A stretch of 64,000 nucleotides of DNA. Source: Saccharothrix deserti (GTDB lineage Bacteria > Actinomycetota > Actinomycetes > Mycobacteriales > Pseudonocardiaceae). Location of the stretch: positions 62,001 to 126,000 of the forward strand of contig NZ_VKAB01000021.1 of NCBI RefSeq assembly GCF_009769385.1. The letters run 5' to 3'. Shown piece after piece: positions 7,483 through 62,625 of this stretch. The position numbers and the translations under genes were made by a program. Under the pieces are notes generated by a model. It saw only the letters and a list, made by a program, of their open reading frames with translations. It searched no databases and was not told where the DNA came from. Position 1 is the stretch's first letter. Each line of letters begins with the position of its first letter.

Positions 7483-7612
7483 GCCGCTGCTCCGCAGACG
7501 GCGGGCTCGGTCGCCTGGAAGTCGGTCGTTCGCGCCTGATTTCCCGACGATCGAAAAGCGTGATCGCCGGGAAATGAGTCGCGAACGACCGACGCGACCT
7601 CGCGCGGTGGGT
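7483..7612 (+). repeat. Family 1 palindromic repeat, copy 1a
   Basis: An intergenic inverted repeat between dapC and dapD. The core stem TTTCCCGACGATC (7540-7552) pairs with GATCGCCGGGAAA (7562-7574) around GAAAAGCGT, with one mismatch. Outer arms 7521-7539 and 7575-7593 match at 17 of 19 positions. The left end carries GCCGCTGCTCCGCAGACGGC (from 7483). It sits at the 3' ends of converging dapC and dapD, so it could act as a bidirectional terminator, but copies also occur upstream of genes. Confidence 0.9.
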
Positions 7613-11115: not shown

Positions 11116-11245
11116 TTGCCGCTGCTCCGCAGACGGCGGGCGAGGTCGCCAGAGGTCGGCCGCTCGCGCCTGATTTTCCGACGATCGAAAAGCGTGATCG
11201 CCGGAAAATGAGTCGCGAACGACCGACGCGACCTCGCGGGTTGAC
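11115..11245 (+). repeat. Family 1 palindromic repeat, copy 1b
   Basis: The core stem TTTTCCGACGATC (11174-11186) pairs with GATCGCCGGAAAA (11196-11208) around GAAAAGCGT. Outer arms are 11155-11173 and 11209-11227. Relative to copy 1a, the T-to-C change in one arm is matched by A-to-G in the other, preserving pairing. It starts with GCCGCTGCTCCGCAGACGGC and lies between convergent genes. Confidence 0.9.
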
Positions 11246-12715: not shown

Positions 12716-12825
12716 AGCTCGCGCGGTTGTCCACAGGCCGGTTCCGACCGCCCGGCGTTGTCGGTCCGTTCTGGCAGGATCAAAAACAGGGATCCCCTGG
12801 GCGGGGACCTCTGCGGAGCCAGGCC
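12716..12825 (+). repeat. Family 2 repeat, copy A (DnaA-box-like word, damage-promoter-like word, hairpin)
   Basis: TTGTCCACAG occupies 12727-12736. TTGTCGGTC (12758-12766) is followed after 8 bases by CAGGAT (12775-12780). Then comes a hairpin, CAGGGATCCCC (12787-12797) with GGGGACCTCTG (12803-12813). The same three-part layout with identical 8-base spacing recurs in copies B, C and D, always on the plus strand. Confidence 0.85.
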
Positions 12826-12836
12826 GGGGCAACGTC

Positions 12837-12930: not shown

Positions 12931-14421
12931 TCAGCCGCGCGGCACCGCCAGCCACGAATCCGCGCCGAACACCACCGACGAGCCGGCCGTGCTGGAACCG
13001 CCGTACCGGGCGTCCACGGTGTCCACCACCAACACCAGCCGGTTGCCCGCCGACACGTTCCACACCACCGGCTCGAGGTCCAGGCCGACGGTTCGCGTGC
13101 CGGCGCCGGTGAGCGTCACCGGCTTGTGCGTGACCAGCGCCCCCAGCCCCAGCGGGTTCACCTCGTACAAGTATGCGTAGAGCGTGGTCTTGGCGGCGCT
13201 CGGCGTCACGGTGAGGTGCGCGCGTGCCGTGCCGCTGACCGTGGTGGCGCTCCACTGCACCGGCCCCCACCACACCGCCGCCGCACCCGGGTCGATCAAC
13301 GGCGTCGCGACGCCCACCGGGATCTTCAGGAAGCCCTGCAAAGCGCCCGACACCAGAACCGTGCCGCTCTCCGCGATGGTCGGCCGGCCGGCGTCGATCC
13401 GGTCCGCCGTCAACGGCACCGTGTCGGTCCGGGCGGTGGCCGCCGCCCACGACGGGAACGAGCGCCAGCCGCCGCCGTTGTTCGGCTTGACCTGCACCGG
13501 GTGCTCGCGGTCGATGCCGTTGTCGACGCCCTTGAGGTGGTGGTCGAACCAGCGGCCGACGGACGTCCAGATCTCGTTGGGCAGCCCGGCCGCGCCGAAC
13601 AGCTCGGCGGTGGCGTGGTCGCCGGGCGACAGCATGAGCCGCTTCGAGCCGCTCAGCGCGCCGAAGAAGTCCGTGATCTGGCTCGGCGCGAACAGCCCGT
13701 CGTTCCACGCGTTGCCGATCATCACAGCGGCCCTGATGGACGACACCTTCGACGCGGGGGAACGGGGCGGCGAGATCGGCAGGACGTCCTCGAACCGGCC
13801 CTCCCGGTAGGCGGACTCCGCCGCGCGCAGCTCCGGCCCCGGCCGGCCGGTCAGGTGCCCGGCGGCCAGCAGCAGTTCGACGGCCTGCGCGTTGACCGTC
13901 TCGTTCGGGTAGAGCGAACGGGCCAGGTCGGTCCACGTGCTGAGCGCGGTCACGGCCTTGATCCGCGGGTCGGCCGCGGCGGCGAGCAGGGACTGGCCCG
14001 CGCCGTAGGAGATGCCGCCGACGCCGATGCGCGCCGGGTCGCCACCGGCCCGCGCGATGCCCCAGTCGATCACCCGGCTGACGTCGGCCACGGTGTCCGG
14101 CCCGGCCACGTCGATCTCGCCCGCCGAGTCGTGGAAGCCGCGCGAGGTGTAGCTGATCACCGAGTAGCCGGACTCGTAGGCGAGCCTGGCCGCCGCGCCG
14201 ACGTACTCGATGTTGTTCACGCCCCAGCTCGACGGCAGCACGAGCAGCGGGAACGGTCCGCTGCCGCGTCCGGTCGGCGTGACGACGAAGGCCTTGAGCG
14301 GGGTGCCGCCCTGGCCGGGGATGGTCTCGTAGGCCACCGCGAAACCGGGCGCGGCCTGGGCGGGTGGCGCCAGGACGAGCGCCACGAGGGCGGCGAGCAG
14401 CAGGGAGAGTGATCGGCGCAC
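12931..14421 (-). CDS. Secreted CocE/NonD-family hydrolase with PepX-type C-terminal domain
   Basis: A 496-residue exported alpha/beta hydrolase. The N-terminus is a Sec signal peptide (RRSLSLLLAALVALVLAPP, cleavage after AQA). The nucleophile elbow is GGISYGAGQSLL near residue 150; GNAWNDGLF and PGDHAT near 235-270 fit the aspartate and histidine of the catalytic triad. The last ~170 residues form a jelly-roll like that of X-prolyl dipeptidyl peptidase/CocE. The GTG at 14421 is chosen for its AAGGAGG site 6 bases upstream; an ATG 30 bp further up lacks one. The substrate may be an ester or peptide. A 14-bp palindrome upstream (14482-14495) may be its operator. Confidence 0.85.
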   Translation of the reverse strand: MRRSLSLLLAALVALVLAPPAQAAPGFAVAYETIPGQGGTPLKAFVVTPTGRGSGPFPLLVLPSSWGVNNIEYVGAAARLAYESGYSVISYTSRGFHDSAGEIDVAGPDTVADVSRVIDWGIARAGGDPARIGVGGISYGAGQSLLAAAADPRIKAVTALSTWTDLARSLYPNETVNAQAVELLLAAGHLTGRPGPELRAAESAYREGRFEDVLPISPPRSPASKVSSIRAAVMIGNAWNDGLFAPSQITDFFGALSGSKRLMLSPGDHATAELFGAAGLPNEIWTSVGRWFDHHLKGVDNGIDREHPVQVKPNNGGGWRSFPSWAAATARTDTVPLTADRIDAGRPTIAESGTVLVSGALQGFLKIPVGVATPLIDPGAAAVWWGPVQWSATTVSGTARAHLTVTPSAAKTTLYAYLYEVNPLGLGALVTHKPVTLTGAGTRTVGLDLEPVVWNVSAGNRLVLVVDTVDARYGGSSTAGSSVVFGADSWLAVPRG

Positions 14422-16310: not shown

Positions 16311-17698
16311 TAGCCGGGGGTCCCGATCAGGTCGGCGTGGGTGCCCTGTTGGGTGATGCGGCCGTCCTCGAACACCAGGATGCGGTCGAAGTCGACCAGG
16401 GGTGCGAGGCGGTGGGTGACGAGGACGACCGTTCGGGTGGCCTGGTCGAGCACGCGTTCCAGGACGGCGTCACCGTGGGCGATGGTCAGGCCTTCGACCG
16501 GTTCGTCCAGGAGCAGGACTTCGGGGTCGGCCAGCAGTGCTCGTGCGAGGAGCAGCCGTTGGCGTTGGCCGCCGGAGAGCGCGTCGCCGTTTTCGCCGAC
16601 GACCGTGTCCCACGGCACGTCCAGGTCCACCAGCGCGGCTACGCGGTCCAGGTCTTCCTGTGACGCCTCCGGGCGGGCGAAGCGGACGTTGGCCTCCACG
16701 GTGGCGTGGAAGACGTGGGCGTCGTCCAGCACGCCTTTGGCGATGCCGGGGTGGGCGGCGGCGAGCTCGCGCAGGAACGTGCTCTTCCCCGCGCCGCTCG
16801 CGCCCACGACCCCGACCCGGCCGACGGGCAGGTCTGCCTCCGGTGGCGCGGTTTCCTGCGCTGTTGCCAGCACTTCACGCACCCGGCGGACCGATCCGTG
16901 CACCTCGGCCCACCGTTGGGCGGCCGACGCCAGCGGCACCGTCACCTCCAGCACGGCGACCGATCCCAGCACGACGTGCGCGGGGGCGCCGGACCGAAGG
17001 AACGCCAACGCGACCCCGAACTGCACGACCACGGCCACGGCCGCCAGCACCGCCGTGCCGGACCCGCCCCGCCGTTCCCGTTCGGCCAGCGAGTCGACCA
17101 CGTGCCCGGTCGCGGCGAGCTCCCGTTCCAGCGCCCCGAACGCGGTCAGCTCGGCGGCGCCGTCCAGCAGCACGACGGTCCGCTCAGCCAACGCCGACCG
17201 CAACGGCGCAAGCGCCCGCAGGTGCCGCACCGCAAGCGCGTAAGCAGTCCACGGGATAACGCATACAGTAACCAATAACCCGACCAACAACGGCCACGCG
17301 AACCCGGTGGCCGCCAACGCGATCGCACCCACCACGAGCGCCACCACGCCCGGCAACAGGCAGCGCAACAACGCATCCTGCATACAGTCCACATCAGACA
17401 CAAGTCGGGTGAGCGCGTCACCGCCGTTCAACGGCCGGCGCAGCAACGAGTCGTAAACCCGTCCCCGAACCTCCGCGAGGTGCCGCAACACCGCCGAATG
17501 CCCGGCCAACCGCTCGGCATACCGCATACCGCCGCGTGCGACGGCCAACGCCCGCACCGCCACGATCGCCACCGTCAACGCGGACAACGGCGGCTGCTCG
17601 GCGGCCCGCATGATGAGCCACACGGCGGTGGTCATCAGCCCGATCCCGGCGAGTTCGGCGGCCACGCCGGCGGCCACCGCGAGCACGAGTCGTCTCAT
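16151..17698 (-). CDS. cydC: CydC: thiol-reductant ABC exporter subunit, shortened ATPase domain
   Basis: CydDC exports glutathione/cysteine-like thiols and is needed for cytochrome bd assembly. The 515-residue protein has an N-terminal six-helix membrane domain and a C-terminal ATPase: Walker A GASGAGKST, signature [15 protein letters not shown], Walker B VLLLDEP, H-loop VTHR. The ATPase is compact. The usual A-loop strand pair before Walker A is nearly absent (PPEADLPVGRVGVVGASG), and the Q-loop reads DDAHVF where the family has QDAHVF after a much longer insert. The last ~45 residues, after GYYRDRW, are a polar tail antisense to gpgS. The start overlaps cydD (ATGA). It may be partly degenerate. 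Confidence 0.85.
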   Translation of the reverse strand: MRRLVLAVAAGVAAELAGIGLMTTAVWLIMRAAEQPPLSALTVAIVAVRALAVARGGMRYAERLAGHSAVLRHLAEVRGRVYDSLLRRPLNGGDALTRLVSDVDCMQDALLRCLLPGVVALVVGAIALAATGFAWPLLVGLLVTVCVIPWTAYALAVRHLRALAPLRSALAERTVVLLDGAAELTAFGALERELAATGHVVDSLAERERRGGSGTAVLAAVAVVVQFGVALAFLRSGAPAHVVLGSVAVLEVTVPLASAAQRWAEVHGSVRRVREVLATAQETAPPEADLPVGRVGVVGASGAGKSTFLRELAAAHPGIAKGVLDDAHVFHATVEANVRFARPEASQEDLDRVAALVDLDVPWDTVVGENGDALSGGQRQRLLLARALLADPEVLLLDEPVEGLTIAHGDAVLERVLDQATRTVVLVTHRLAPLVDFDRILVFEDGRITQQGTHADLIGTPGYYRDRWSTERMAGRSSHDTSTVAGSHSPSNGTNCVNSDDSTGTPHRRSTVPVI

Positions 17699-19311
17699 GT
17701 GAACGTCACCACCCGGTCGACCTCGCCGAGCATCACCGGCCGGTGCGCGACGACCAGCGCCGTCCGCCCGGACGAGAGCTGCCGCGTGGCGCGCAACACC
17801 ACCTCCTCGGTCCCGCTGTCCAATCGCGACGTCGGCTCGTCCAACAGCAGCATCCGCGCGTCGTCCCGGACCAGCGCCCGCGCCAACGCCACCCGCTGCC
17901 GCTCACCCGACGACAACGCGTGCTCGGCGTCGACCAAATGCCCCAACCCCATCGCCGACGCCGCACCCCGCACGTCACCACCCGACCCCAGCGCGATGTT
18001 CTCCCCGACCGTGCCGGGGAACAGCGTCGGCCGCTGCGGCACCCACGCGAGCTGCCGCAGCCACGACCCCCGCTCCACCTCCCGCAGATCCACCCCACCG
18101 ACCAGCACCCGCCCGGACGCCGGCGTCACGAAACCCATCAGCACCGCGAGCAACGTGCTCTTCCCGACACCGCTCGGCCCCACCAACGCCACCCGCTCAC
18201 CAGGCGTGATCCGCAACGACATCCCACCCAACGCGTCCCGCCCCGGATACCGCACCACCACCCGGTCCACCACGATCTCGGCCCGCCGCAGGTCCGGTGC
18301 CCGCGTCCCGATCACCGATGCGACAGGCCGGTCGGCGAGTTGTCCACAGGCCGTGCTCGACGGCGTGGGTTTGTCGGTCCCGTCTGGCAGGATCAAATCA
18401 AGGGATCCCCTTGGCGAGGACCCCTGCGCAGCCGCGGCCTCCAGCACCGCCAGCCCCTCGGCCGACGCGTGGAACTGGGCACCGGCCGCCCGCAACGGCA
18501 GGTAAGCCTCCGGAGCCAGCAGCAGCACCAGCAAGGCCACGTGCAACGTCACCCCGCCGTGCAGCAGCCGCAACCCCACCGGCACCGCCACCAGCGCCAC
18601 GGACAACGTCGCCACCAGCTCCAGCACCAACGCCGACAGGAACGCCACCCGCAACGTCCGCATGGTCGACGCCGCGTGCGCACCCGCCATCGCCCGCACG
18701 GTCGCCGCCTGCGCCGCCGCCCGCCCGAACACCTTCAACGTCCCCAACCCGCGCACCACGTCCAGAAAGTGCCCGCCCACCACGGCCAACCCGGCCCACT
18801 GCGCCCGCGTCCGATCCCGCGTGTGCATCCCGACCAGCGCCGCGAACACCGGCACCAGCGGCAACGTCACCAGCACCACCACCGCCGACGTCAGGTCGGC
18901 GAACGACAGCCGCACCACCACCGCGACCGGCACCACCGCCGCCACCACGAGCTGCGGCAGGTACCCGGCGAAGTACGGCTCGACCGCGTCCAGCCCTTTC
19001 ACCACCAAAGTCGCCACCGACCCGGCCCGCGCCGAAGAGCCGGAAGCACCGGAAGCACCGGAAGCCCCACAAGACCCACGCAACACCTGCTTGCGCAAAG
19101 AAGCCTTCATCGACGAGGCGAAGCGCTGCGTCACTACCCGCCCACCCCACACCACGACCCCGCGCGCCAGGACCACCGCCACCAGCCACCACGCCGACCG
19201 GCCACCGGACAGCACCGAGGCCAACACCTCGGCCTGTCCCACCACGACCACCGCCGTGACGACCGCGAGCACGGCGAGAACGACGACGTACCGCCGATCA
19301 ACGTGCCGCAC
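17695..19311 (-). CDS. cydD: CydD: thiol-reductant ABC exporter subunit with repeat-encoded insertion
   Basis: Partner of CydC, 538 residues: six-helix membrane domain, then ATPase with Walker A GPSGVGKST near residue 370, Q-loop WVPQRPTLF, signature LSSGERQRVALARAL and Walker B MLLLDEPTS. Residues ~294-324 (from AQGSSPRG to CGQLADRP), in the linker between domains, are encoded by family 2 repeat copy B read on the opposite strand. The reading frame is intact across it. Near residue 80 there is a GASGASGAS run from 9-bp tandem repeats (about 19033-19070). It overlaps cydC by 4 bp and cydB by 14 bp. Confidence 0.88.
   Translation of the reverse strand: MRHVDRRYVVVLAVLAVVTAVVVVGQAEVLASVLSGGRSAWWLVAVVLARGVVVWGGRVVTQRFASSMKASLRKQVLRGSCGASGASGASGSSARAGSVATLVVKGLDAVEPYFAGYLPQLVVAAVVPVAVVVRLSFADLTSAVVVLVTLPLVPVFAALVGMHTRDRTRAQWAGLAVVGGHFLDVVRGLGTLKVFGRAAAQAATVRAMAGAHAASTMRTLRVAFLSALVLELVATLSVALVAVPVGLRLLHGGVTLHVALLVLLLAPEAYLPLRAAGAQFHASAEGLAVLEAAAAQGSSPRGSLDLILPDGTDKPTPSSTACGQLADRPVASVIGTRAPDLRRAEIVVDRVVVRYPGRDALGGMSLRITPGERVALVGPSGVGKSTLLAVLMGFVTPASGRVLVGGVDLREVERGSWLRQLAWVPQRPTLFPGTVGENIALGSGGDVRGAASAMGLGHLVDAEHALSSGERQRVALARALVRDDARMLLLDEPTSRLDSGTEEVVLRATRQLSSGRTALVVAHRPVMLGEVDRVVTFT
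18336..18430 (+). repeat. Family 2 repeat, copy B, inside cydD
   Basis: TTGTCCACAG lies at 18340-18349. TTGTCGGTC (18371-18379), 8 bases, and CAGGAT (18388-18393) follow, then a hairpin-forming AGGGATCCCC (18401-18410) and GAGGACCCCTG (18416-18426). It is antisense to cydD, in frame with it, and adds about 31 residues. Confidence 0.85.
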
Positions 19312-22435: not shown

Positions 22436-22861
22436 GTGACCTCAGCGCTCATCTACATCGTCGTCATGGCGCTCGTGGCGGCCGTGGTGTTCCTGCTGGC
22501 CGCGCTGGTGTTCGGGCGTGGCGAGGAACTGGAACCGCTGCCGCCGGGCGCGTCGCCGACCCGCCTGCCGGCCGACGACGTGACCCCGGACGACGTGCGC
22601 GACCTGAAGTTCCAGCAGGTCCTGCGCGGCTACAAGATGACCGAGGTGGACTGGGCGCTCGACCGCCTGGCCACCGAGGTCGAGCAACTGCGCGCCCGGG
22701 TCGCCGAACTCGAAGCCGAACTGGACGCCGAGCGGCAGCGGGACCTCGGCCCGGAAATCGGCCCGGAAATCGGCCCGGAAATCGGCTCGGAAATCGGCCC
22801 GGACCTCGACGGGAAACCCGAACGGGAACTCGATTGGGAGCCGGAGCACGACCGGGCTTGA
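22436..22861 (+). CDS. DivIVA-domain-like membrane-anchored protein with EIGP repeats
   Basis: A 141-residue protein: one N-terminal membrane helix (SALIYIVVMALVAAVVFLLA), a linker, then a short DivIVA-type motif (VRDLKFQQVLRGYKMTEVDW, near residue 60) and a coiled coil (LATEVEQLRARVAELEAELD). It ends in a repeat tail GPEIGPEIGPEIGSEIGP from 12-bp tandem repeats. The GTG at 22436 follows CACGAT by 6 bases. In M. tuberculosis the gene between gpgS and tagA (Rv1209) is similar in position and probably orthologous. A role in polar growth or cell-wall assembly is plausible from the domain but unproven. Confidence 0.8.
   Translation: MTSALIYIVVMALVAAVVFLLAALVFGRGEELEPLPPGASPTRLPADDVTPDDVRDLKFQQVLRGYKMTEVDWALDRLATEVEQLRARVAELEAELDAERQRDLGPEIGPEIGPEIGSEIGPDLDGKPERELDWEPEHDRA
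22749..22808 (+). repeat. 12-bp in-frame tandem repeats (EIGP)
   Basis: Units of GGCCCGGAAATC occur about five times with one GGCTCGGAAATC variant and a degraded last copy, encoding (GPEI)n at the C-terminus of the DivIVA-like protein. Such repeats commonly vary in number between strains. Confidence 0.85.
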
Positions 22862-22992
22862 GCTGCGCGTCCACGTCGAGGCGCCGGCCGGGACCACCTG
22901 GGCGGCGCTCACCGACCGGGAGCGGCAGGGTGAGTGGACGCCCGGCACCACCGTCCGCGTGACCAGCGGCAACGGCGCGAGCCGCCGCGCAC
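22860..22992 (+). pseudogene. Remnant of an SRPBCC (START-like) family gene
   Basis: About 44 codons in frame read ELRVHVEAPAGTTWAALTDR then ERQGEWTPGTTVRVTSGNG. This matches the start of actinobacterial SRPBCC proteins (VDAPAxxVWxALTDWxRQGEW, then GTxVRVTSG). The match stops at family 2 repeat copy C. No ATG or GTG begins the fragment and no remainder is seen before tagA. In related genomes, from memory, an intact SRPBCC gene sits at this place, so this looks like a gene broken by repeat acquisition or deletion. Confidence 0.7.
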
Positions 22993-23085
22993 TTGTCCAC
23001 AACTGTGGCTGGACGACCCGAGACTGTCGGTCCCCGCCGGCAGGATTGACGACAGGGGATCCCCCAGGCGGGGACCCCCGCGTAG
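22991..23085 (+). repeat. Family 2 repeat, copy C
   Basis: TTGTCCACA lies at 22993-23001. CTGTCGGTC (23024-23032), 8 bases, and CAGGAT (23041-23046) follow, then a hairpin of GGGGATCCCC with GGGGACCCCC (23053-23080). It begins exactly where SRPBCC similarity ends. Confidence 0.85.
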
Positions 23086-23130
23086 CAACGCCGCCCCCCG
23101 CGCAGCGCCGCCCCCCCGCGCAGCGCCGAC

Positions 23131-23286
23131 CACCACGCGAGGTCGCCGTCGGTCGTTCGCGACTCATTTTCCGGCGATCACGCTTTTCGATCGTCGGAAA
23201 ATCAGGCGCGAGCGGCCGACCTCCCGGGCGACCGAGCCCGCGACGCCGGAGGCGGCGCAATCCAACACAGCAATCCAACACAGGAG
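23131..23286 (-). repeat. Family 1 palindromic repeat, copy 1c
   Basis: Inverted relative to copies 1a and 1b. Core arms are TTTTCCGGCGATC (23167-23179) and GATCGTCGGAAAA (23189-23201); outer arms are 23148-23166 and 23202-23220. GCCG words at 23145-23148 and 23215-23218 bound the 70 bp that are missing at 9721-9788. It ends with CAATCCAACACAG twice, just before tagA. Confidence 0.9.
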
Positions 23287-23292
23287 CACCGC

Positions 23293-23844
23293 ATGACCGA
23301 CCTCGTCCGCTGCCCGTGGGGCGACAGCACCCCCGACTACGTCGAGTACCACGACACCGAATGGGGCGTCGAGCTGCACGGCGAGGTGGCCATGTTCGAG
23401 CGCATGTCGCTCGAGTCGTTCCAGTCCGGCCTGTCCTGGATCACCATCCTGCGCAAACGGGCGAACTTCCGGACCGCGTTCGCGGGCTTCGAACCCAAGC
23501 TCGTGGCCGAGTTCGGGCCGGACGACTTCGACCGGCTGATGGCCGACGCGGGCATCGTGCGCAACCGGGCCAAGATCAACGCCACGATCAACAACGCCCG
23601 CGCGATCGCCGAGCTCGACGTGCCGCTGGACGACCTGCTGTGGTCGTTCGCGCCCGAGCACCACGAACGGCCCGCCACGATCGCCGACGTGCCCGCCGTC
23701 ACGCCCGAGTCGAAGGCGTTGGCCAAGGAGCTCAAGCGCCGCGGCTTCGTGTTCCTCGGCCCCACCACCTGCTACGCGCTGATGCAGGCCACCGGCATGG
23801 TCGACGACCACATCGCGACCTGCTTCCGCGCTACCGGCCGGTGA
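23293..23844 (+). CDS. tag: DNA-3-methyladenine glycosylase I
   Basis: Tag excises 3-methyladenine from alkylated DNA in base-excision repair. The 183-residue protein shows RCPWGDSTPDYVEYHDTEWG at the N-terminus (zinc-binding Cys and substrate-binding region), ERMSLESFQSGLSW near residue 38, IVRNRAKI near 88, and GFVFLGPTTCYALMQATGMV near 150 with the C-terminal zinc ligands. It follows the DivIVA-like gene as tagA (Rv1210) follows Rv1209 in M. tuberculosis. Its 3' end overlaps the convergent enoyl-CoA hydratase gene by 14 bp. Family 1 copy 1c ends a few bases upstream, so the native promoter may be altered. Confidence 0.94.
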   Translation: MTDLVRCPWGDSTPDYVEYHDTEWGVELHGEVAMFERMSLESFQSGLSWITILRKRANFRTAFAGFEPKLVAEFGPDDFDRLMADAGIVRNRAKINATINNARAIAELDVPLDDLLWSFAPEHHERPATIADVPAVTPESKALAKELKRRGFVFLGPTTCYALMQATGMVDDHIATCFRATGR

Positions 23845-46484: not shown

Positions 46485-46620
46485 CCCCCGCCGGTTGTCC
46501 ACAGGCCGACCGGTTGTCCACAGGCCGATCCGCGCCGCCCTGAATCGTCGGTCCCCTCCGGCAGAATCAAAGCAGGGGTCCCCTTGGCGGGGACCTCTGC
46601 GAAGCGCGAGCCCGGCGGCA
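46485..46620 (+). repeat. Family 2 repeat, copy D, with two TTGTCCACAG words
   Basis: TTGTCCACAG occurs at 46495-46504 and 46514-46523, preceded by a related TTGTCCCCCG. TCGTCGGTC (46545-46553), 8 bases and CAGAAT (46562-46567) follow. The hairpin is CAGGGGTCCCC (46573-46583) with GGGGACCTCTG (46589-46599). It lies in the 590-bp gap after the acyl-CoA dehydrogenase. Confidence 0.85.
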
Positions 46621-62483: not shown

Positions 62484-62625
62484 CCGTCCCCGCGAGGTCG
62501 CCGTCGATCGTTTGCGACTCATTTCCCGGCGATCACGCTCTTCGATCGTCGGGAAATCAGGCGCGAGCGGTCGACCTCCCGGGCGACCGAGCCGCCGTCT
62601 GCGGAGCAGCGGCAATCCGACACTG
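62484..62625 (-). repeat. Family 1 palindromic repeat, copy 1d
   Basis: Core arms are TTTCCCGGCGATC (62522-62534) and GATCGTCGGGAAA (62544-62556) with loop ACGCTCTTC; outer arms are 62503-62521 and 62557-62575. The orientation is that of copy 1c. It shares the CCC/GGG paired change with copy 1a. It ends with GCCGTCTGCGGAGCAGCGGC then CAATCCGACAC, 25 bp before the RecB-like gene. Confidence 0.9.

Follow-up and report, generated by a model that had tools for sequence, protein, structure and literature searches.

The promoters most similar to the repeat described here are those that depend on PafBC. In parts of PMC5656591 their consensus is given as tTGTCRgtg-8 nt-TannnT, and parts of PMC11804915 describe PafBC as activated by single-stranded DNA and as engaging the -26 motif. 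The repeats share the TGTCRG word, the 8-nt gap and the position of the -10 with PafBC-dependent promoters (RecA-NDp, recA P1), and the recA promoter of the same genome also shares TGTCGGACC. They differ in that the -10 is mostly CAnnnT, about 81 copies exist with hairpins where transcription would be expected to start, a same-strand gene is usually not next downstream, and 46 of 81 copies carry an extra upstream box.

This box has the nine letters of the high-GC DnaA box, TTGTCCACA, whereas in the repeats, as in comEA-type promoters, it stands at a fixed distance of about 38 nt before the -10. Like the CIN-box and K-box, which are competence promoter boxes of other phyla, it is a short word common to promoters of DNA-uptake-type genes, although it differs from both in sequence and phylum. 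The repeats also resemble REP/BIME repeats, being short, palindromic and intergenic and lying near convergent 3' ends, but differ from these in carrying promoter words at fixed spacing. The comEA/EC promoter of Micrococcus is discussed in parts of PMC8467076 and PMC12849477 without naming any box; titles and the opening lines of abstracts in the open-licence literature name no such box, and among the matches listed for the ten-letter form no title concerned such promoters. From comparison of sequences, the repeat is best explained, with a probability of roughly 0.55, as a dispersed cassette of promoter and hairpin that has been amplified in Saccharothrix, with a PafBC-type core, in one sub-type a site for a box-bound activator and a terminator in the reverse direction.

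The repeat in the window and in the genome

The window, the 64,000-nt stretch analysed as a whole, is part of contig C15 in a draft genome of 10.83 Mb. Copies were scored with a covariance model, R2, which was built from 42 copies (alignment A2) with the hairpin structure supplied by hand; it was used in place of model R1, which was dropped because its structure departed from the hairpin. The features of the four window copies are as follows.

12722..12827, plus strand: repeat copy 1 (R2, 110 bits)
12727..12736, plus strand: TTGTCCACAG box of copy 1
12758..12766, plus strand: TTGTCGGTC, PafBC-type -26 word of copy 1
12775..12780, plus strand: CAGGAT, -10-like hexamer of copy 1
12787..12813, plus strand: inverted repeat CAGGGATCCCC/GGGGACCTCTG of copy 1, with an A.C mismatch in the stem (z -1.5 as DNA, -1.8 as RNA)
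12813..12819, plus strand: GCGGAGC, GCGNAGC-type end of copy 1
12775..12818, minus strand: copy 1 in the reverse reading, a hairpin with TTTTT after it, resembling a terminator of the minus-strand gene that ends at 12931
18335..18440, plus strand: repeat copy 2 (R2, 102.8 bits), antisense within the ABC transporter ORF 17695-19272 (minus strand)
18340..18349, plus strand: TTGTCCACAG box of copy 2
18371..18379, plus strand: TTGTCGGTC of copy 2
18388..18393, plus strand: CAGGAT of copy 2
22988..23094, plus strand: repeat copy 3 (R2, 88.9 bits), with a methyladenine DNA glycosylase gene 198 nt downstream on the same strand
22993..23001, plus strand: TTGTCCACA box of copy 3
23024..23032, plus strand: CTGTCGGTC of copy 3
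23041..23046, plus strand: CAGGAT of copy 3
46509..46613, plus strand: repeat copy 4 (R2, 100.8 bits)
46495..46504, plus strand: extra TTGTCCACAG box of copy 4, 19 nt ahead of the aligned box
46514..46523, plus strand: TTGTCCACAG box of copy 4 at the standard distance
46547..46554, plus strand: GTCGGTCC of copy 4
46562..46567, plus strand: CAGAAT of copy 4
46572..46600, plus strand: 12-bp hairpin GCAGGGGTCCCC/GGGGACCTCTGC of copy 4 (z -4.8 as DNA, -4.9 as RNA)

The initial annotation had described a box, a damage-promoter-like word and a -10-like hexamer in these copies, and every letter that it claimed is present. In particular, gTTGTCGGTC, TTTGTCGGTC, CTGTCGGTC and TCGTCGGTC each stand exactly 8 nt ahead of CAGGAT or CAGAAT. 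The box is found at all four positions that it gave (12727, 18340, 22993 and 46495), but a fifth box lies at 46514, and this is the one that aligns with the others, so that 46495 marks the extra box of copy 4.

Copy 2 is in frame within the ABC transporter ORF and, read antisense, forms the linker between its membrane and ATPase domains; in another genome (G014, L242), a copy lies between the corresponding genes. Copy 3 and a palindromic repeat precede the glycosylase gene (22988-23844), and the DivIVA-domain gene upstream has 12-bp tandem repeats, GGAAATCGGCCC, at 22729-22812. Repeats of a second family, about 80-90 nt in length and containing a long inverted repeat, are present in both orientations (7518-7609, 11152-11243, 23145-23236 and 62500-62591).

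R2 matched 83 places in the genome at 40 bits or more, which correspond to about 81 distinct copies after removal of two on contig C22, as C22 repeats C21. Contigs C21 and C22 have identical copies at identical spacing and are probably a duplicated assembly stretch. Comparison with controls revealed that the family is not a product of chance: the window holds five TTRTCCACA words against 0.25 expected, a number reached in 0 of 100 shuffles, and the genome holds GTCGGTCCNNNCNGGCAGRATNNA (at most one mismatch) at 37 places against 0 for the reversed control and TTRTCCACA-N10..40-GTCGG at 48 against 2. No copy of at least 40 bits was found on contigs C2 (562,689 bases) and C3 (555,798 bases), C3 having one place of 16.5 bits. 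The idea that the promoter derives from DUF222/HNH elements was rejected, as the one DUF222 match of the genome is on C2.

Exact matches to the repeat core in a named genome collection comprised 38 stretches, all from Saccharothrix. At E 0.001, R2 matched 25 of 60 genomes (own included): 22 of 25 in the genus, with 1 to at least 65 matches each, 2 of 11 in the family outside the genus (G031 with 14, G025 with 3) and 1 of 24 in the order outside the family (G039 with 9). Since three genomes outside the genus are matched, the repeat family is mainly, not strictly, genus-bound. Neither the pattern nor copy 4 matched phages or plasmids, and in the six loci scanned known RNA families matched elsewhere than at the copies. 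In one relative (G022:C1:138012-189015), eight copies in the same orientation are about 5 or 10 kb apart, a spacing that suggests a tandemly repeated gene block. Two tandem copies 158 nt apart (L126 3501-3763) both align to the single copy of G014 (L234).

Recent spread, one of two options given by the initial annotation, finds no support for the family, as mean column identity is 71% (42 copies) and several copies lie between the same genes in other species. With regard to MITE features, no inverted ends were seen by eye in A2, and four presence/absence comparisons revealed no clean duplication in gaps that are too diverged. Insertion boundaries were sought by gap comparison, an approach rejected because the intergenic regions are too diverged.

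Promoter-like core and upstream box

The family core is GTCGG(T/A)CC-N5-GG-NAnnnT, and the recA promoter of the same genome reads aTGTCGGACCCCACCCGTAACGT, with a -10 of TAACGT and a motif beginning 72 nt before the start codon. TGTCRG was found in 63 of the 81 copies (74 with CGTCRG allowed), and 78 have a correctly placed NAnnnT, as TAnnnT in 13 and as CAnnnT in 63. The copies fall into two sub-types: those with the box carry GTCGGTCC (25 of 46) or GTCGGTGC (6), and box-less copies carry GTC(G/A)GACC (29 of 35), a whole word present in 3 of the 46 box copies. The sixth base of GTCGGNCC is T in 35 of 46 box copies and A in 31 of 35 box-less copies (Fisher P 6e-13, T vs A), and all 13 TA -10s are in box-less copies. 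The pattern TTGTC[AG]G[TA][GC]-N8-[TC]AnnnT gave 39 distinct matches in 113 regions of this genome, 38 of them within family copies; as these regions were mostly selected for holding copies, the count is not a genome-wide rate.

Box-less copies thus have the recA form of the word and box copies a different core plus an upstream site, which suggests that the box compensates for the core. Activator-dependent promoters usually show compensation of this kind. As evident from the core word, the 8-nt gap, the position of the -10 and the likeness to recA, the sequence supports the PafBC-type promoter of the initial annotation, although the -10 is mostly CAnnnT, and PafBC-type initiation at the repeats is probable. 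The copies do not as a rule seem placed to drive a damage-response gene: a same-strand gene is next downstream in 16 of 73 intergenic copies, and one window copy (copy 3) precedes the methyladenine glycosylase gene.

The last exact TTRTCCACA lies at -33 or -34 from GTCGG in 47 of 83 copies, that is, in all copies having one within 80 nt; in these 80 nt, 36 of 83 have no exact word, nine have two and one has three. With the C22 copies dropped, the exact box is at -33/-34 in 46 of 81 copies and missing in 35, and in the box sub-type this places TTGTCCACA 38-39 nt from the -10. In the whole genome, TTGTCCACA is found 130 times against 45 for the reversed word; the analysis drew on 100 listed places of the 130, of which at least two non-family places (C8:381966, C5:82713) lie outside it.

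Outside the family, the box precedes genes matching HHH_3 plus SLBB (ComEA-like, L275), UPF0102 (YraN, L271), SAF (L265, CpaB-like by look), SSB (L287) and DUF4192 (L273). The products at L261, L262 and L263 matched no Pfam family, that of L263 resembling a Flp-locus protein by eye only. An A...T hexamer follows the box by exactly 38 nt in 9 of 12 non-family promoters hand-picked from 52 rows, the comEA-like one included, and no other distance is found more than twice; the boxes of L264, L279 and L300 do not follow this rule. Of the 52 rows, 19 were intragenic; from the 33 intergenic ones, 5 first members of doublets and 16 others were dropped (four at L266, two each at L267 and L268, and one each at L282, L288, L290, L291, L293, L295, L298 and L144), and at L270 a second box, TTATCCACAG, was used in place of the listed one. 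Since the start codon comes 6-7 nt after the hexamer at several 38-nt sites, the promoters at these sites may be leaderless. At L266 (2003-2226), four TTGTCCACA boxes lie ahead of a gene that resembles dnaB helicase by eye, and from the box closest to this gene the distance to TAGCGT is 30 nt instead of 38.

In 29 relatives in the order, taken from the best-scoring 30 loci (own included) of 133 matching genomes among 150, the region upstream of comEA contained the box in 24 cases (at most one mismatch, within 700 nt) and none in 5. With a hexamer pattern that was written after viewing the sequences, 19 show a -10 that lies 37-40 nt from the box, for which chance would give about 2% (37 nt in 1, 38 in 4, 39 in 11, 40 in 3), and 5 of the 24 lack the expected -10. 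Many of these regions have a second box 18-19 nt upstream. The strands of the comEA loci were those of the listing, with which a simple open-frame check disagreed for L324 and L328.

The initial annotation had likened the box to a DnaA box, and its letters do match, but the constant distance to the -10 in both the repeats and the gene promoters favours a promoter site. An upstream promoter site is thus the better reading of TTGTCCACA, ahead of a replication box. This distance makes it quite likely that the box is bound by an activator, and DnaA itself may be that activator.

Placement, conservation and alternative explanations

In gene calls from a home-made gene finder, 10 of 83 copies were inside ORFs, and of 71 intergenic copies 38 lay between convergent, 27 between tandem and 6 between divergent genes. 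Copy-free gaps of at least 60 nt in the same loci were 13% convergent, 46% tandem and 41% divergent by length (convergent excess, P 1e-15). On the reverse strand, the repeat reads as a hairpin followed by a T-run, the 8 nt ahead of the hairpin containing 4.7 A on average and at least 5 in 42 of 75 copies. A gene faces the T-run side in 57 of 73 intergenic copies; of the 27 copies in tandem gaps, 17 have a T-run that would serve the facing gene and 10 do not. The reverse strand thus has the sequence of an intrinsic terminator, with a GC hairpin, a T-run and a facing gene, and the convergent excess together with the T-run makes a terminator role also reasonably likely. The placement would reflect a reverse-strand terminator, promoter avoidance or both, and it argues against the driving of a neighbouring gene.

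The repeat also resembles a REP element, being palindromic, intergenic and present in many copies. A less likely alternative is a REP-like terminator or 3'-end element between convergent genes, in which the promoter words would be unused remnants of a spread sequence. It would account for the convergent excess, for the reverse-strand hairpin with its T-run and the service of this run to facing genes in tandem gaps, and for the variation in copy presence between species: element-bearing gene pairs had a copy on both sides in 26 of 37 cases and differed in 11 by a simple detector, these being one detector miss (L095/L247), three with a partial own copy (L156), three at the dnaA locus and four at other loci. 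Such an element needs neither TTGTCCACA nor GTCGG, yet these are 92-96% kept in orthologs compared with 57% for the spacer, and the words match the recA and comEA promoters with correct spacing.

In 24 orthologous pairs, which came from loci chosen for holding a copy, identity was 96% for the box, 92% and 88% for the core words, 85% for the hairpin (22 pairs measured), 66% for the N5 gap and 31-33% for the flanks; the core words served to align the pairs, and boxes were counted at up to two mismatches, both of which favour the identity of box and core. The box was present in both members of 18 pairs, in one member of 2 and in none of 4. These were 24 of 35 pairs, five re-pairings of used copies and six pairings with no clear counterpart (C19:18425 three, C28:26004 two, C25:107873 one) having been dropped. 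We conclude that the promoter words are genuine and have been maintained by selection. The sequence after the hairpin is not conserved in the 24 pairs (31%), so that no product is visible.

It is improbable that the copies are sites where DnaA binds, either to be titrated or to mark the half of the chromosome near the origin. TTGTCCACA, which we take to be the high-GC DnaA word, has two exact copies in the gap between dnaA and dnaN, and in four complete congeners the median distances from copies to dnaA are 1.0, 1.0, 1.4 and 1.1 Mb compared with 2.2-2.7 Mb if uniform; conserved genes, however, also lie origin-near in such genomes. Further points against such sites are that 35 of 81 copies have no exact box, that the box keeps its distance from the -10 in gene promoters, and that there is no orientation relative to the fork. 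All copies had been proposed to point the same way on the chromosome, which is true only of the four in the window: the 83 places divide into 41 plus and 42 minus, intermixed within contigs, with minus-strand copies on the window's own contig (C15:24662, 134712, 139287 and 195183). A strand bias relative to replication was not found in the four congeners, where copies of at least 40 bits were co-oriented with the fork in 61 of 105 cases (17/35, 21/34, 15/24 and 8/12; pooled P 0.12; no single congener significant, P 0.23 to 1.0), those of G022 at 130-200 kb being left out. In the own genome, one copy lies 76 nt after dnaA (L142 3501-3608), and none was seen there in G003, G014, G021 and G022.

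In 77 of the 78 copies that were measured, 3-8 nt separate the -10 from the beginning of the GC-rich inverted repeat. As the initial annotation stated, it follows the -10 in all four window copies, but the data support its pairing weakly. The stem is paired in 87% of cells compared with at most 67% for any slid version; two-sided changes were found in 3 of 11 pairs compared with 1.2 in shuffles, a level reached by 30 of 500 shuffles; and among the window copies, folding far better than that of shuffles is limited to copy 4. A tandem repressor operator at the transcription start, formed by two arms each near GGGGWCCCC in place of an RNA hairpin, is very improbable: each arm is nearly palindromic alone, the central pair is unpaired in 25 of 42 copies and the fold predicted for copy 2 has a small hairpin in each of the two arms, but the perfect 12-bp GCAGGGGTCCCC/GGGGACCCCTGC stem is the commonest form (13 of 78) and the pairing exceeds that of the slid versions. 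GCGNAGC follows the hairpin in 60 of 75 copies (AA 40, GA 12, TA 5, CA 3); as DNA, this heptamer forms a mini-hairpin of unusual stability, a hint that it may act in single-stranded form. No consistent ORF starting at the hairpin was seen downstream by eye.

Proposed mechanism and its meaning

According to the promoter-plus-hairpin reading, RNA polymerase with PafBC, activated by single-stranded DNA, would start transcription at the foot of the hairpin. In box copies, with their GTCGGTCC core and C as the first base of the -10, an activator on TTGTCCACA would assist. As the same box precedes comEA and some other genes, these copies may fire upon uptake or exposure of single-stranded DNA. The RNA would have the hairpin at its start and would either extend in antisense across the 3' end of the facing gene or end early, and the same hairpin would halt transcripts that arrive from the facing gene on the opposite strand. 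That any specific RNA product arises from the repeats is doubtful.

We tentatively propose that TTGTCCACAG, followed 38-40 nt on by a TANNGT-like -10, may define a competence-gene promoter class of the order, and that in about 46 box copies of Saccharothrix it may have been fused to a PafBC core that senses single-stranded DNA and to a hairpin at the start site, mostly where gene ends converge. If this is true, dozens of gene ends would be transcribed simultaneously upon DNA uptake or damage, and the products would be antisense or hairpin RNAs, or hairpin DNA exposed so that the element can spread. The activation of competence genes in Actinobacteria is described as little known in PMC12849477. 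With a defined box at a fixed distance from the -10 before comEA in many genera, the regulator could be found directly. Finally, the joining of the comEA box to a promoter of DNA-damage type, spread across the genome, suggests a link between DNA uptake, the sensing of single strands and the spread of repeats.
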